Positions 30,079 to 45,358 of a stretch of DNA of 64,000 nucleotides are shown one piece after another. The notes below the pieces were generated by a model, which was not told the origin of the DNA, made no database searches, and saw nothing but the letters and a program-made list of their open reading frames with translations. Made by a program: the position numbers and the translations under genes. Numbering within the stretch: position 1 is the first letter of the stretch; each line of letters starts with the position of its first letter. The stretch covers positions 30,544 through 94,543 of the IMG/VR virus record IMGVR_UViG_3300050821_003463; one strand, given 5' to 3'. The DNA is from a virus.

Positions 30079-30592
30079 GATGCGTAAAGTGGGGGAGTAT
30101 CTTGTGTTCGATTCAACGAACTCGCACAGCATGCCGGTCGACCCTGCGAGCGCACTCTCAGATTGTGAAGGCCCGCATGCTGTACACGTTTTTGAATCGG
30201 CTGTCGTTCTTTGCGCCGTGCCCGTCAGGAGCACCGCTTGGTAGTCAGGATATTTACCAGCGAGGCGATTGTGTCTCAATCGTATAGGGAGTCTTTACCG
30301 TGCATCGTCGCCTGTCCGCTTGTGTGGACTCAGGTCTGATTACCTTCGCTGTCGCATCCTCGTTTGCGTCGGCTGTATTACTCTGCTGTGGCGATTAGTG
30401 CGGCATCACAGCGCGACTGGATTAGTGCGACGGGCTAGGCAACGATGGTTTGGAACCCTTACTCGTCTTCTATTCGGCTACTACCCGCTAGTCTCAGGGG
30501 CTTTTGCTTTGCCTCTCCCCTGTGGGCGGTTGCTCTAACTTTTCACGCCTGCTTTGTTTCGGTTCGGGTGAGTGTCTTGCACTTCCGAACTG
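30042..30592 (-). ncRNA. candidate large structured ncRNA, about 550 nt
   Basis: The unit starts at a strong promoter and ends at a hairpin-plus-U-tract, and no frame inside it has a normal start with a ribosome site. Helices seen directly (plus-strand coordinates): 30556-30567 with 30585-30596 (one mismatch) at the 5' end, 30385-30390 with 30407-30412, hairpin 30266-30282 (6 bp), and 30126-30134 with 30175-30183 (9 bp). Size and phage setting recall GOLLD and ROOL RNAs, but I cannot match any conserved motif. Confidence 0.6.
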
Positions 30593-39478: not shown

Positions 39479-39825
39479 CGAAATCTCCTGCCCTGGGTGA
39501 TCTTCGCCGTGCGTTTGAAATCCGCTGTGACCGGCACGGGGTTGACCAGAGCCTTGCGCGCGGCGATCAGGTCTAATTGAGTTTCGTCAATGTTGTGCGG
39601 ACCCCCGGGCTTGTGCCGTCGTACGTAATCTTGCAGCGTCCAATCTATCTTATCAGAGTCTATAGGTACCGGTAAGATTTCCACCGTGTGACATTGCTTA
39701 CAGCCTACTCGCATTCGGTCTGCATGCCAAGCAAATTGAATGTTGACGTCCAATCCCGCAGTCTTCATCCACTGGTGGAGATAACTCTGGATTGTCGTTT
39801 GCACATCCGCTTTGCTCACCGGCAT
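39475..39825 (-). CDS. hypothetical protein ending in GRRFR, 116 aa
   Basis: The protein has a CKQCH site near residue 42, a central WTLQDYVRRHKPGG segment and a Lys/Arg-rich end. Its last residues KITQGRRFR match the C-terminal peptide of the AAA ATPase and three others. It is not recognised. Confidence 0.65.
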   Translation of the reverse strand: MPVSKADVQTTIQSYLHQWMKTAGLDVNIQFAWHADRMRVGCKQCHTVEILPVPIDSDKIDWTLQDYVRRHKPGGPHNIDETQLDLIAARKALVNPVPVTADFKRTAKITQGRRFR

Positions 39826-39833
39826 ACAGCCCC

Positions 39834-39995
39834 CTATAAAGTCTCAGTGATCGCTTTCACCGCCACGCCGAGCACCATCAGTATCAAGCCCCACTCGACA
39901 CAGCCCTTAGCCTGCCACGACAGTACCGCGAGCGTCATGCAGATCGCAGAACCAACCAGAGCCGAGATAAGAAAGCCCAGCGCGTAGAATTTCAT
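39834..39995 (-). CDS. small membrane protein, two helices, 53 aa
   Basis: Hydrophobic stretches at residues 4-26 and 34-48 predict two membrane passes. ATG 39995 overlaps the phosphoesterase stop and follows GGGAGGA. Confidence 0.6.
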   Translation of the reverse strand: MKFYALGFLISALVGSAICMTLAVLSWQAKGCVEWGLILMVLGVAVKAITETL

Positions 39996-40762
39996 GCGTC
40001 CTCCCGTCGAGCTAAAGTTTCAAAATACTCAGCGAGATCAAAGCGAGAGGTTCTCTGGATTTTACAGAAGCCGCAGGACTCTCCGACCGGATGAAGATGG
40101 TACGTGGAGCCAGCGGAGGGAATCGAACCCCCGACCTCGGGTTTACAAAACCCTTGCTCTGCCGTCTGAGCTACGCTGGCAGTTTTCCACACCTTATCTG
40201 GCGCGATGACATGATGCGACTCAGTCTTCGCCATCTTCGCTTCAATCTCTTCCAGTGACCAGGGCTCGAAGTCGTGACTGTCTACGCCAATATCAAAAGA
40301 GTGCCCGAGTTCTTCGATCTCCCCGTGCGAGTGTCCGTAGACGTGCCACGAACCCTTGTGCGAGTTCTGCCATACGCGCTGGGCGAAGTGAGAGATCACT
40401 ATCATATGTTTGTTGAACTTCACGCTGTGACTCGTGTTCTCTTTGTTAACTCCCCGAACCCACTCGAACTCTTTCTGCAGTGTAACGCGGCGCTCCATCA
40501 GCTCATCGTGATTGCCGTAGAGAAACGCATGTCTTCCGTTTAGACGATGAACGATGGATCGCGCTTCCATCTCACTCATTGTCTGCCAAAACATGTCCCC
40601 GGCGTGGATAGTCAGGTAGGATGGCTTATTGGGAACCTTCTTGTTGTGGCGCTCGATGATGATCTCTCTCATCTCCTCAGTCGAGGAGAACGGGCGATTG
40701 CAAAACTGAATGATGTTGTTGTGCCCGTAGTGCTCGTCACTGGTGATGAAGATTTCGCTCAT
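39992..40762 (-). CDS. calcineurin-like metallophosphoesterase, 256 aa
   Basis: All metal-binding motifs are present: SDEHYGH near residues 8-14, GDMFW near 54, GNHDE near 77, ISHFAQ near 122 and GHSHG near 141. These enzymes hydrolyse phosphomono- or diesters, including cyclic nucleotides and RNA ends. The catalytic domain ends near residue 185. The last 70 residues are encoded across a tRNA gene lying in frame inside this ORF, so the functional protein may end earlier. Confidence 0.85.
   Translation of the reverse strand: MSEIFITSDEHYGHNNIIQFCNRPFSSTEEMREIIIERHNKKVPNKPSYLTIHAGDMFWQTMSEMEARSIVHRLNGRHAFLYGNHDELMERRVTLQKEFEWVRGVNKENTSHSVKFNKHMIVISHFAQRVWQNSHKGSWHVYGHSHGEIEELGHSFDIGVDSHDFEPWSLEEIEAKMAKTESHHVIAPDKVWKTASVAQTAEQGFCKPEVGGSIPSAGSTYHLHPVGESCGFCKIQRTSRFDLAEYFETLARREDA
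40105..40180 (-). tRNA. tRNA-Thr (anticodon TGT)
   Basis: The acceptor stem GCCAGCG/CGCTGGC, D-arm GCTC…GAGC, anticodon loop TTTGTAA, T-arm CGGGGGTTCGATTCCCTCC and an encoded CCA are all present. One mismatch lies at the base of the anticodon stem. The gene is inside the coding frame of the phosphoesterase, on the same strand. A phage tRNA may compensate for codon bias or for host tRNA cleavage. Confidence 0.92.
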
Positions 40763-41127
40763 TTTACTCTCGTTGCCTCCGATGAAGTGCCCTGTGTGTA
40801 CGTCAGAGGTGCCGTGTTTACCAGCACGAAAACTTTGCTTTCCAAAGTGACGACTTCGGGTATTTCCGGTACAGATGTCATCACAACCTTGACTCGCGCG
40901 AGAAACGTCTGGGAAATATGCCCGAATTTGGGTGTCTCGACCATGCGCGCGACGATGGAAAACATTTGAGATGGAACTCTCGTCTCATTCCAACGCAAAG
41001 CAGCAGGCGGGGGTGGCAGGAGAGTTCCGAGTTTTCGTTTGACTTCGCTTAGAGCGAACCTAGCCATTTCTTCAGGACTGGCGTCTTGGATGCGTGTCTT
41101 TCTCCGCGCCTTCTTCTTTATCGCCAT
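40759..41127 (-). CDS. hypothetical protein, 122 aa
   Basis: A very basic N-terminus precedes a Pro-rich turn and a beta-rich C-terminal domain. AAGGAG precedes the ATG, just downstream of the tmRNA. It is not recognised. Confidence 0.6.
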   Translation of the reverse strand: MAIKKKARRKTRIQDASPEEMARFALSEVKRKLGTLLPPPPAALRWNETRVPSQMFSIVARMVETPKFGHISQTFLARVKVVMTSVPEIPEVVTLESKVFVLVNTAPLTYTQGTSSEATRVK

Positions 41128-41154
41128 GTCTTCTCCTTAAAACCAGAAATTAAC

Positions 41155-41510
41155 GGGGACTTTCTGTTCCAAGGTCGTCCCCTGAACCCGCTGACGCGGC
41201 AGCTTTAGGCTGCGGCGGCAAATGCTTTCGGCTTTTCAGTCGTAGCAATTATTGTTTCTGTGTCCTGTTAACGGTAGCCACAGCAGCCCGACACGCAAGT
41301 TAAAACCCTGATGCGCCGCAATCGAAACCATGACGCCCCCATCAAAGTCGCCCACTTGACGAATCGCGCTCTGCCGTATTCCGATGAGAGCAACGGGTCG
41401 TTTTCTCGTAGTGGTCAAACACACGCCCTTGCGCTTTCTTGGGCGACTTTGGTGGAGGCGGGGAGAGTCGAACTCCCGTCTTACAGCGTCAATGCTAACC
41501 TTCTACGTGT
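41155..41510 (-). ncRNA. ssrA: circularly permuted (two-piece type) tmRNA
   Basis: On the minus strand the acceptor part comes first: T-arm GGGAG-TTCGACT-CTCCC, then CGCCTCC-A-CCA ending at 41450. About 109 bases later the coding part starts at 41340 with GGGGGCG, which pairs with CGCCTCC across all seven positions including a G3-U70 pair, the alanine signal. The spacer ends form a perfect 10-bp repeat (41344-41353 with 41441-41450). The tag frame (41205-41246) reads ATTEKPKAFAAAA then TAA, with the stop in a hairpin loop. The 5' limit of the acceptor piece is not known. Confidence 0.88.
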
Positions 41511-41915
41511 GTTCTTGAAGAAGCGTTTCTCAAAGTCCCGCTTGCTCCTCAATTTCTCCTGCGTGTACCGTCCGTTTCGCGGAGTCACGCTTTTATATTC
41601 TTTGATTAGCATGCGAGCCCGTCTAACCTTTTCAGGCTCGCGCAGATATGGAAAAATCAAACCTAAAAATTTTATCGCCGCATCTCCGCTCAATGACCAA
41701 ACCCCGCTCGGAGAGTGACTCTTCTTAGAAGGTCGTTTCCCGCTTATACAGCCGCCAAAGCGGGTCCACATCCAACTCAACAAAGCTGGCGTGCAACTCG
41801 GAATTGAAACAGTCGGCGCTCGGTGTTCTCCCTTATGACGATGAGTCAGAGTCACCGTGCCCTCGCCATCGAAGAGTCCTGCTGCGTACGATAAGTCAAG
41901 AGAGTCATTTGTCAT
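41481..41915 (-). CDS. LAGLIDADG homing endonuclease, 144 aa
   Basis: YAAGLFDGEGTVTL near residues 10-23 is one LAGLIDADG helix, and GAGVxS-like and Lys/Arg-rich C-terminal parts follow, so a homodimer is expected. The final codons overlap the acceptor piece of the tmRNA. No ribosome site precedes the ATG. Such enzymes favour tRNA and tmRNA target sites, and position alone suggests the tmRNA is or was its target. Confidence 0.78.
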   Translation of the reverse strand: MTNDSLDLSYAAGLFDGEGTVTLTHRHKGEHRAPTVSIPSCTPALLSWMWTRFGGCISGKRPSKKSHSPSGVWSLSGDAAIKFLGLIFPYLREPEKVRRARMLIKEYKSVTPRNGRYTQEKLRSKRDFEKRFFKNTRRRLALTL

Positions 41916-42459: not shown

Positions 42460-44538
42460 CTATTTCTTGTAGTACGGACCTTCCCATCCTTCAGCCTTGA
42501 GCACGAAGCCCATTCCCTCAGCCCACTCCGGTATGATACACATCGCCGCCAGCAGGTCCTTCTCTCCGAGAGGAGAATCAATCGGCACCTCACCTACTAT
42601 TTCATCATGGATCGTCATGATGATCGTGAACCCCAGCTTCTCGGCTTCGAGCATGCCGCTAAGCAGAAGGTCCCTGGCGATAGCCTGTACGACGTTTTCT
42701 GTTAGAAGTCCGCCGTAAAGTCGGTTGTCCTTCGCGCCCTTCGAACCATACATGATGAAGTGGATGCCCTCTCTAGGAGGACCGCCCCACGGTGGAGGTT
42801 CGCAAACGAGGCGCGGCTGATGGTAGTGGATGTATCTTCCGCTGGGCAGCTTGATCTTCAGGCAGTTCTCATCGCGCCCATCCACCACAAGACCGTTCAC
42901 ATAAACACAAATACCAGCCTTCAACGCAGTCAGTGTCGCCGCATTCAGCGCAGCCCAGAGATCGCATATCTCAGGGTACGTCTCGCGGAATCCATAGACT
43001 GCTTCCTTCGCTTCCTTCTCGTTCAAGACGATGCCGTATGTCGCGGCGTAGTCAATGAACTTCTCCCAGCCCATCCCGTATCCGCAACCGAGGATGATGA
43101 CCTTGCCTCGATCTCTGTGTGACTTCGTGACCTCGCTCAGCGGAATGCCGAGCTGTGCTGCCATGACTTCTTTGTAGAGATCGCGCCCTTCTGCGTAAGC
43201 TGACATCATTCCCGGGCACTGTGCAATCGCCGCGAGAACGCGGGACTCGATCTGCGCAAGATCGCCCGCGACCAACTTGTTTCCTGGTGCTGCGGCGAAC
43301 GCGCCGCGAATCGTCGACGCTACGACCTCCATCACCGTGAAGATATCCACTTGGAGATGCGGCTGTGGCTTCTCTGTCGGGTGCGCCGCGTTCCACTCAT
43401 CCATCACCGCGTCATACGCTGCAATAACGGTCGGGATATCGAGCGTTCCACTCCGGATAGCCGCCGTCAGAGCATCGGTGCATTTGGAAACTTCCCGGTT
43501 CGGCTTGTACAAGTTCTGCAACTGCACACCGCGCCCCGCCCAGCGCCCCGTGTGCGCGCCGTGATAGATGAACTGGTCGTGCAGACGTCCGTCCGCGCCT
43601 ACGAGGTCTTCTATCTTCTGCAGCTTCGTATACGCGGAGCCGCCGATCTTCTGTTTGAGTTCAAGAATCTTTCGCGGCAGAGGTTTCAGATAGGGGAGCT
43701 TCAGCCCTTCTTCGACGTGCTCAGCATCAAGACTGTCGAACGGATAGCCTCTCTGTTGCAACCATTCGAGCAACTGGTCACGAGAGTTAGGATTCTCCAA
43801 CCCAGTTTCTATCTTCATCTCACTGATGAACTGGTCAACTGCGCCGAGCGCGAGCGCCTTCGCATTCGCTACGTACGCTTTGTCGATCCAGACGCCCGTG
43901 CTGTTCATGCGCTGGTCAAGCAGCCACGCCTGCTTCTCCCCGGGAGTGATGGGAGAGTTGAACGCAACCGCCGCGTGCCACACGCCACGCTCCGCGATGA
44001 CGTCCATGATGCAATACTCACAGAACTGTTTCCATTCCTCCGGATGCGAGTTCCAGTCCTTGAAGTAGAGAGCCGGTGCGGTCGGGTCTTTCTTCAGAAT
44101 GCGCTTGAACTGTTTGCTCGGCTGGGAGAACAGCTTGACGCCGCGCTTATCGCCCGTCGTGTGGATTTTCTTCTCGTCGATATTGAGCGCGTTGCCCGCT
44201 CGGTCCAAGCCGATAGGAAGGGACATGTACGCGCACAGGACGTTCGGGTCATACCATTCGACGAGAGGGATCGCGATGCCGAGTTTATAATGTAGAATGT
44301 CCTTCTCGAAGTTGAAGTTCCAGGCGCACTTGATCACGGTCGGGTCTGTCAAACCGGCGAGGAGTTCCTGGGGCATCGGCTCGCCCAGGCACGGGAGCCA
44401 GAGCTTGGGATAGTCTTCGTCGAATGCCCACGCGAGCATCAGAACGCTGGTCGTCGGGTCCTTGGCGTAGCGATCCAGTCCGCATAGCTTGATGCTGGTC
44501 ATCGAGCGCGTTTCAAAGTCTAGCCAAAGTCGTCTCAT
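42460..44538 (-). CDS. family A DNA polymerase with 3'-5' exonuclease, 692 aa
   Basis: The N-terminus has the exonuclease motif WLDFETRS at residues 5-12 (DxE), with later Exo II and Exo III (YCIMDVIAE) segments. The polymerase palm has motif A VAGDLAQIESRVLA, the fingers motif B HRDRGKVIILGCGYG (O-helix Arg, Lys and Tyr-Gly), and motif C TIHDEIV. It lacks the 5'-3' nuclease domain, as in T7-type phage polymerases. It is the replicative polymerase of the phage. Confidence 0.95.
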   Translation of the reverse strand: MRRLWLDFETRSMTSIKLCGLDRYAKDPTTSVLMLAWAFDEDYPKLWLPCLGEPMPQELLAGLTDPTVIKCAWNFNFEKDILHYKLGIAIPLVEWYDPNVLCAYMSLPIGLDRAGNALNIDEKKIHTTGDKRGVKLFSQPSKQFKRILKKDPTAPALYFKDWNSHPEEWKQFCEYCIMDVIAERGVWHAAVAFNSPITPGEKQAWLLDQRMNSTGVWIDKAYVANAKALALGAVDQFISEMKIETGLENPNSRDQLLEWLQQRGYPFDSLDAEHVEEGLKLPYLKPLPRKILELKQKIGGSAYTKLQKIEDLVGADGRLHDQFIYHGAHTGRWAGRGVQLQNLYKPNREVSKCTDALTAAIRSGTLDIPTVIAAYDAVMDEWNAAHPTEKPQPHLQVDIFTVMEVVASTIRGAFAAAPGNKLVAGDLAQIESRVLAAIAQCPGMMSAYAEGRDLYKEVMAAQLGIPLSEVTKSHRDRGKVIILGCGYGMGWEKFIDYAATYGIVLNEKEAKEAVYGFRETYPEICDLWAALNAATLTALKAGICVYVNGLVVDGRDENCLKIKLPSGRYIHYHQPRLVCEPPPWGGPPREGIHFIMYGSKGAKDNRLYGGLLTENVVQAIARDLLLSGMLEAEKLGFTIIMTIHDEIVGEVPIDSPLGEKDLLAAMCIIPEWAEGMGFVLKAEGWEGPYYKK

Positions 44539-44813
44539 CGTCGTCTCCCAAGACTAGGAAGCCCCGCGCTGCAAGCTTGTCCACATTGTTTGCCATACAG
44601 AGCAAAATACGCTTTGTCAACCTCTCCCTTAAACATCAACCGTGCTGACTTCAAAAGAGCTGGGTGTAGTCGGGGGTCGAGGTCTGGGGTTTTTTCCAAC
44701 TGAAGCCACACAGACAGCAAACCCATCGCGGTCTGAAAGCATTCCAGCTTTGTAAAATCGACGGGCTTTTGCATGGTAGCTATCAAAGTATCGTACCGTT
44801 CTTGTAGAGTCAT
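44535..44813 (-). CDS. hypothetical protein, 92 aa
   Basis: ATG 44813 overlaps the GIY-YIG-type gene stop and is preferred to 44873. The protein is helical with a C-terminal basic end. It is not recognised. Confidence 0.55.
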   Translation of the reverse strand: MTLQERYDTLIATMQKPVDFTKLECFQTAMGLLSVWLQLEKTPDLDPRLHPALLKSARLMFKGEVDKAYFALYGKQCGQACSAGLPSLGRRR

Positions 44814-45106
44814 GCGCCCAACCTCCTCATCTCTTCTAAAAAGGTTTTGATCTCTGGAGTCATTCTGAACCATTCTCCCGCGAGACGTGCTTTACGAAAT
44901 CTCCGGTGCATAGCAGCTTCGTCCCATTCTCCTGATTTGCAGTCGCCCATGAACTCTATGCCTATCGGCAAGATCATGGCGATAGACAAAGGGTTGGCAC
45001 ACCCTGTCTGGAGTTGTCGAAGACGCGCGAAGACATTGAAAGACTTTCCAATCTTTACAGCGCGAGACTTTTTGTCTTCAATGAAGTATGTTGATAGATG
45101 TCCCAT
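44810..45106 (-). CDS. T5orf172/MUG113-like GIY-YIG nuclease, 98 aa
   Basis: STYFIEDKKSRAVKIGKS near residues 5-22 carries the GIY-YIG-type Tyr and a KIGKS strand, NVFARLRQLQTG supplies the Arg helix, and EAAMHRRFRKARLAGEWF holds the Glu. This is the T5orf172/MUG113 branch of the GIY-YIG superfamily, often freestanding DNA nucleases in phages. ATG 45106 follows GAAAGGAAG. Confidence 0.75.
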   Translation of the reverse strand: MGHLSTYFIEDKKSRAVKIGKSFNVFARLRQLQTGCANPLSIAMILPIGIEFMGDCKSGEWDEAAMHRRFRKARLAGEWFRMTPEIKTFLEEMRRLGA

Positions 45107-45122
45107 GCTTTTCTTCCTTTCA

Positions 45123-45358
45123 ATCACTGTCAAACGTGACAGTGATCCCGTCGCGGCAAGTTCATTGATTCTAAAAGACTTTACCGTGGGGGGAGTCAAT
45201 CACTGTCTACTGTCTTCTCTTACACCCCCCACCACACATACCATCCCCCTATAGGGGTCTATCAGGAGACAGTAGACAGTGATTCTGCTTTTTCTTGGCA
45301 TTTCTGTTGATTCTAAAGTAGTTAACTTAGGAACAGTTCACTGTCACCCCTGACAGTG
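45123..45358. repeat. cluster of CACTGTC/GACAGTG inverted repeats
   Basis: Six copies of CACTGTC occur in three inverted pairs: 45123-45132 with 45137-45146 (10 bp, 4-base loop), 45199-45215 with 45267-45283 (17 bp perfect), and 45339-45346 with 45351-45358 (8 bp). TTGATTCTAAA is repeated at 45165 and 45307, CCCCTATAGGGG (45246-45257) is a 12-bp palindrome and GTGGGGGG/CCCCCCAC (45186, 45224) pairs too. No ORF is present. Confidence 0.7.

Follow-up and report, generated by a model that had tools for sequence, protein, structure and literature searches.

A circularly permuted tmRNA gene with altered tag ends in a phage group that includes Tunturiibacter phage Tunturi_3

Positions 41137-41566 of the window, on the minus strand, are a circularly permuted tmRNA gene of the two-piece type in a phage, and this gene is a stable feature of the group to which the phage belongs. 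(The window is the whole 64,000-nucleotide stretch that we analysed, from positions 30,544 to 94,543 of the 94,543-base IMG/VR virus record IMGVR_UViG_3300050821_003463.) ARAGORN calls a permuted tmRNA at 41114-41542 (minus strand) with the tag ATTEKPKAFAAAA, and the Rfam model RF04321 (tmRNA_permuted) matches 41205-41510 over its full length (1-213), with 75.5 bits against a gathering cut-off of 47 bits (E = 1.1e-12 over 64 kb). Both matches bear out the original prediction of a permuted tmRNA, which had the locus right but, at 41155-41510, drew it slightly short; the beta_tmRNA model aligns end to end with 41137-41566, scoring 43 bits against its own cut-off of 84. The region has a minimum free energy z-score of -3.2 relative to shuffled sequences, and its P2 helix and acceptor-plus-spacer hairpin emerge unprompted from the folding. 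The Rfam E-value, the ARAGORN call, the folding energy and the covariation over 13 homologues described below together make the tmRNA more than a chance resemblance. Its parts are as follows.

41450..41510, minus strand: acceptor piece (distal P2 strand, T-arm, acceptor 3' strand, A73 and encoded CCA)
41503..41510, minus strand: distal P2 strand ACACGUAG, which pairs with UUGCGUGU at 41291-41298
41461-41477, minus strand: T-arm, with 5 of 5 T-stem pairs and the loop TTCGACT
41454-41460, minus strand: acceptor 3' strand CGCCUCC
41453, minus strand: A73
41450-41452, minus strand: CCA
41341..41449, minus strand: intervening spacer of 109 nt, expected to be removed
41440-41449 and 41345-41354, minus strand: inverted repeat of the spacer, AAGTCGCCCA and TGGGCGACTT, forming a 10-bp stem
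41137..41340, minus strand: coding piece (acceptor 5' strand, D-loop region, P2 strand, tag frame and 3' region), with an approximate 3' end
41334-41340, minus strand: acceptor 5' strand GGGGGCG
41205..41246, minus strand: tag reading frame ATTEKPKAFAAAA plus stop, with resume codon GCT at 41246 and UAA in a hairpin loop

The acceptor half lies ahead of the coding half exactly as had been claimed, with CGCCTCC-A-CCA ending at 41450 and GGGGGCG running from 41340, and all seven pairs of the acceptor stem re-form across the permutation, G3-U70 included. The 5' end of the acceptor piece depends on the model used (41542 by ARAGORN, 41566 by beta_tmRNA). The predicted 13-codon tag was also found as described: it opens with GCT, reads GCT ACG ACT GAA AAG CCG AAA GCA TTT GCC GCC GCA GCC TAA, and has its stop in the loop of GCAGC-CUAAA-GCUGC. 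Acceptor-first order, re-formed stem, G3-U70, T-arm, CCA and tag frame place the gene in RF04321; the order of the standard one-piece family RF00023, in which the 5' acceptor strand comes first, is not found, and ARAGORN classes the gene as tmRNA*. The alpha, beta and cyano two-piece tmRNAs of RF04321 share with it the leading acceptor, the spacer, G3-U70, P2 and a tag with UAA in a hairpin, but the lineage-specific models, beta_tmRNA for example, fit the window poorly. In the folded model, the P2 helix (ACACGUAG/UUGCGUGU) would hold the acceptor and coding pieces together. The same 8-bp helix is present in Tunturi_3, and distal P2 is firm for the window and Tunturi_3 only, because an automatic search for the longest helix took proximal helices in several relatives.

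The spacer was originally described as bounded by a 10-bp perfect repeat. A repeat is present but it is inverted, and a repeat search found no direct one; its full arms are 21 nt long and 90% complementary. The resulting stem starts the spacer and leaves four nucleotides (UGAU) before G1, opposite A-CCA, as a 4x4 internal loop. We measured covariation in a construct consisting of the acceptor stem and the spacer stem from 13 phages. In it, 95.2% of cells pair, where shuffles give 66.8%, and it has a covariation score of 0.784 compared to 0.215 +/- 0.035 in shuffles (0 of 500 as high), a signal that is lost when the partners are slid. The acceptor helix is 100% paired, with all 7 pairs formed and G3-U70 invariant in 13 of 13 sequences; three pairs are altered on both sides, and there are six stem types. 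Acceptor pairing helped to locate the halves, so this 100% is partly due to selection, although the changes are real; the spacer stem was unselected, and it is 91.5% paired over the 13 family members with double changes at all nine pairs. We considered the spacer stem as a novelty and dropped this idea, because most of the other viral permuted tmRNAs that we checked have a similar stem; it is ordinary anatomy, and probably a guide for processing.

The genome encodes a family A polymerase, a Prim-Pol/DUF3987 protein, a terminase and an SU10/P22-like portal. Of 50,697 phage records, a single one matches the portal: Tunturiibacter phage Tunturi_3 (61% identity over the whole length), a podovirus of 97.6 kb whose isolation host is an acidobacterium (PMC11924767). 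By local comparison the two phages are largely collinear, with identities of 82.5% for the major head protein, 52% for the recombinase, 49% for the terminase and 45% for the helicase. From its genes, the window phage appears to be a lytic-type podovirus related to Tunturi_3, and this homology and collinearity suggest that the host of this soil phage is probably a member of the Acidobacteriota.

Permuted tmRNA genes are present in 12 relatives, including Tunturi_3, so that 13 genes were compared, counting the window's; the IMG/VR relatives were found by their polymerase, portal or tmRNA pattern. Every relative examined whose contig includes the tmRNA locus has the gene. Longer contigs without it (G357 and G358) end near or inside the polymerase, and the portal contigs without it are all shorter than 28 kb, so the locus probably lies off the contig. 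In Tunturi_3 (L027, PP885686.1) the gene is unannotated, at 39673-39897 (63.3 bits), and was missed by ARAGORN; it has the acceptor stem GGGCUUG/CAAGUCC and a spacer of 25 nt. The paper describing the phage does not mention a tmRNA (PMC11924767). We found no DNA similarity between the tmRNA locus and phage records. Two members depart from the tmRNA consensus: in L005 (8385-8560) the T-loop is shortened and CCA is not encoded, while L354 has no canonical T-loop. In view of these departures, part of the family may be in decay or altered, and the RNAs of L005 and L354 are possibly decaying or inhibitor-like.

The genes around the tmRNA are these.

42460..44538, minus strand: family A DNA polymerase, the syntenic marker upstream of the tmRNA in polymerase-bearing relatives
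41481..41915, minus strand: 144-aa ORF matching phrog_5046 'HNH endonuclease' (E = 8.5e-21), with a LAGLIDADG-like motif AAGLFDGEG
40759..41127, minus strand: downstream ORF, with AAGGAG directly 3' of the tmRNA
39992..40762, minus strand: phosphoesterase (phrog_547), the downstream syntenic marker common to the relatives and Tunturi_3

The phrog_5046 ORF is the homing endonuclease that had been noted beside the tmRNA. It is indeed there, its last codons sharing at least 30 bases with the acceptor piece, but it has no detectable homolog in the tmRNA-bearing relatives, so it is probably an independent mobile insertion; no relatives of it were found in viral contigs. A GIY-YIG-like T5orf172/MUG113 ORF at 44810-45199 adjoins the polymerase, and by eye the gap that holds the phrog_5046 ORF in the window contains other HNH-looking ORFs in the relatives L004 and L330. 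Together these ORFs suggest a hot spot for mobile endonucleases, and the gap looks like a site where they come and go, with no sign of action on the tmRNA. No terminator-like site was found on the minus strand between the tmRNA and the ORF at 40759..41127, and a promoter and terminator scan around the locus gave results near chance level. A tRNA-Thr(TGT) at 40105-40180 falls within the phosphoesterase open frame as called (39992-40762); in L003 the same tRNA-Thr(TGT) lies just past its phosphoesterase match.

Among the likely hosts the tmRNA gene has another form. In the family to which Acidobacteriaceae bacterium KBS 83 belongs, a standard tmRNA exceeds the cut-off in 51 of 60 genomes, and we recognised no permuted tmRNA gene in 297 Acidobacteriota genomes. 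Nine of the 297 exceed the RF04321 cut-off, and we rejected these loci as permuted genes: ARAGORN calls eight of them standard, and the ninth (L190, with no ARAGORN call) is probably standard as well because it adjoins the same tRNA-Val/tRNA-Asp pair. All 44 acidobacterial tags called end in -ALAA or -AYAA. The RF00023 tmRNAs of Acidobacteriota resemble the phage gene in having an alanine tRNA-like domain and, in nearly all cases, an Ala resume codon, but they are unpermuted and made in one piece. The phage gene therefore differs from that of its likely hosts in both form and tag; its sequence appears nearer to permuted tmRNAs of the proteobacterial type, and some relatives pass the alpha model.

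The tag frames are open and similar across the family although their codons differ, and the group is set apart by how the tags end. The window's tag ends AAAA, with the terminal Ala-Ala present and the usual L or Y before it absent; L332 and L351 also end AAAA, and five relatives (L003, L004, L006, L019 and L330) have tags ending -AGR, of which AETKPLAMAAAAGR is an example. One (L005) ends -AGM, and the others end AAHA, EAAA, ASA or LAA, the last being Tunturi_3, whose long tag, in a frame read by eye, apparently ends MLAA and begins at a non-Ala resume codon, GAC. Tags with a non-alanine end make up 6 of 13 in the group and 0 of 22 outside it (Fisher p = 0.001, which is only a guide because the sequences are related); among the 22 unique viral permuted tags outside the group, 20 end in AA and all 22 in Ala. 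The -GR tags fall in three subclades of the polymerase tree, and the window's sister L003 has one. Their last two codons are GGT CGG in four relatives and GGA CGC in L006, in differing hairpin contexts. A frame error as the source of -GR was rejected, since the other frames of L003 stop early or mismatch.

A ClpXP-type degron has an Ala-Ala-COO- C-terminus, usually as -[LVY]AA. In E. coli the ssrA degron has this Ala-Ala-COO- end, which is bound in the ClpX channel (PMC10638403), and in 2014 the only species described as having a tag with a charged last residue was Carsonella (PMC4131195); on this comparison, tags ending -AGR would probably be poor ClpXP degrons.

Gene form, pairings, covariation, tag frame, presence across the family and the lack of a recognised SmpB gene are all read directly from the genomes. 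We think it likely that they reflect a functional permuted tmRNA, cut in two, charged, and rescuing ribosomes with host SmpB beside the host's own tmRNA, under selection acting more on rescue than on degradation. In the single folded transcript the acceptor stem would continue into the spacer stem; host RNase P and 3' trimming enzymes would excise the spacer, and P1 and P2 would keep the resulting acceptor and coding pieces joined. Host AlaRS would charge the molecule through G3-U70, and host SmpB would deliver it to stalled ribosomes for reading of the 13-codon tag and release of the ribosome. During infection the phage RNA would supplement the one-piece tmRNA of the host. Processing, charging, timing, host identity and the benefit to the phage are steps that we infer. 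Searches for SmpB (PF01668) gave no match in the window's record (G000) or in 10 related records, some of them fragments, whereas 12 of 14 control genomes were positive; the phage RNA must therefore use SmpB from the host. A protein with an RF-1 domain (ArfB-like) occurs in Tunturi_3 (gp125; L027 33970-34308) and is absent from the other ten records searched; judged by its domain, gp125 is a possible second ribosome-rescue factor. Selection appears to act more on rescue than on degradation of tagged products because the C-terminal tag residues are relaxed or altered in the group. For its growth in E. coli, lambda immP22 relies chiefly on ribosome rescue, and degradation through the tag is of secondary importance (PMC2862035): plating is 0.1-0.5 with ssrA-DD and 0.9 with an early-stop version (PMC2862035). 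This dependence agrees with a phage tmRNA that is retained for rescue and whose tag end is relaxed. Against a functional gene stands the fact that the host already has a tmRNA, which leaves the need for a second one unexplained.

It is unlikely that the RNA serves mainly as a decoy, binding host SmpB and alanine and thereby blocking host trans-translation, a role proposed for the RNA of mycobacteriophage DS6A, which consists of the tRNA-like domain only. Molecules of the DS6A type are strong inhibitors of tmRNA, perhaps through titration of SmpB (PMC4131195), and the absence of a recognised phage SmpB and the altered T-loops of L005 and L354 point in the same direction. However, the tmRNA relative of mycobacteriophage DS6A lacks the tag part (PMC4131195), which in the window is intact, and the family keeps a full tag frame, resume codon, stop and 3' pseudoknot-like region, all needless for a decoy. 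We consider it very improbable that the gene is a decaying passenger without function in the window phage: the deviations of L005 and L354 from consensus would suit such decay, but the window's seven acceptor pairs, P2 helix, T-loop, CCA and tag frame are intact, and the family shows compensatory changes. The ssrA gene is a common phage integration site. Such integration is discussed in PMC9004378, and Tunturi_3 has an ORF annotated as an integrase, but carriage of a host tmRNA fragment or whole gene by a temperate phage is the least credible explanation, because the gene is complete and permuted with no permuted counterpart recognised in the 297 Acidobacteriota genomes, its interior position between polymerase and phosphoesterase is conserved in relatives with those genes, and it is too diverged to be recent.

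The view that a permuted tmRNA in a phage is unusual was overstated. A 2022 survey reported 133 unique structures in 402 phages, 53 of them two-piece tmRNAs predicted by ARAGORN (PMC9004378), PMC11915505 contains 79 phage tmRNA sequences of all forms, and our IMG/VR scans matched many more viral permuted tmRNAs, so the window's gene is not new in kind. Like the two-piece tmRNAs of Melnitz (OM43) and other phages, it is a complete permuted tmRNA with a proposed origin outside the host lineage (PMC9004378). Those phages are mostly marine or aquatic, whereas ours are soil-type podoviruses whose host lineage has the standard tmRNA. Melnitz, a myophage, carries a glutamine riboswitch; for the window the Rfam scan reported no riboswitch family. 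Four unrelated phages (L014, L018, L020 and L021) have permuted tmRNAs with an unusually long 28-aa tag ending TEAVAA, and the two checked against Rfam, L014 and L020, pass the beta-type model.

What is worth following is the family-level change in the tag together with the mismatch to the host's gene form. We suggest tentatively, and with more doubt than belief, that this acidobacterial phage clade has a rescue-only tmRNA, dependent on host SmpB, whose tags ending in -Ala-Gly-Arg (or AAAA or AAHA) escape host ClpXP. If this is true, stalled phage products would be spared degradation, with dilution of the host's degradative tagging; should the -AGR tags prove stable, they would be nature's equivalent of the engineered ssrA-DD tag. 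Because the gene sits unannotated in a cultured pair, Tunturi_3 and Tunturiibacter, the question is directly testable, and a phage rescue RNA unlike the host's in form would offer a natural test of rescue alone versus rescue plus proteolysis.
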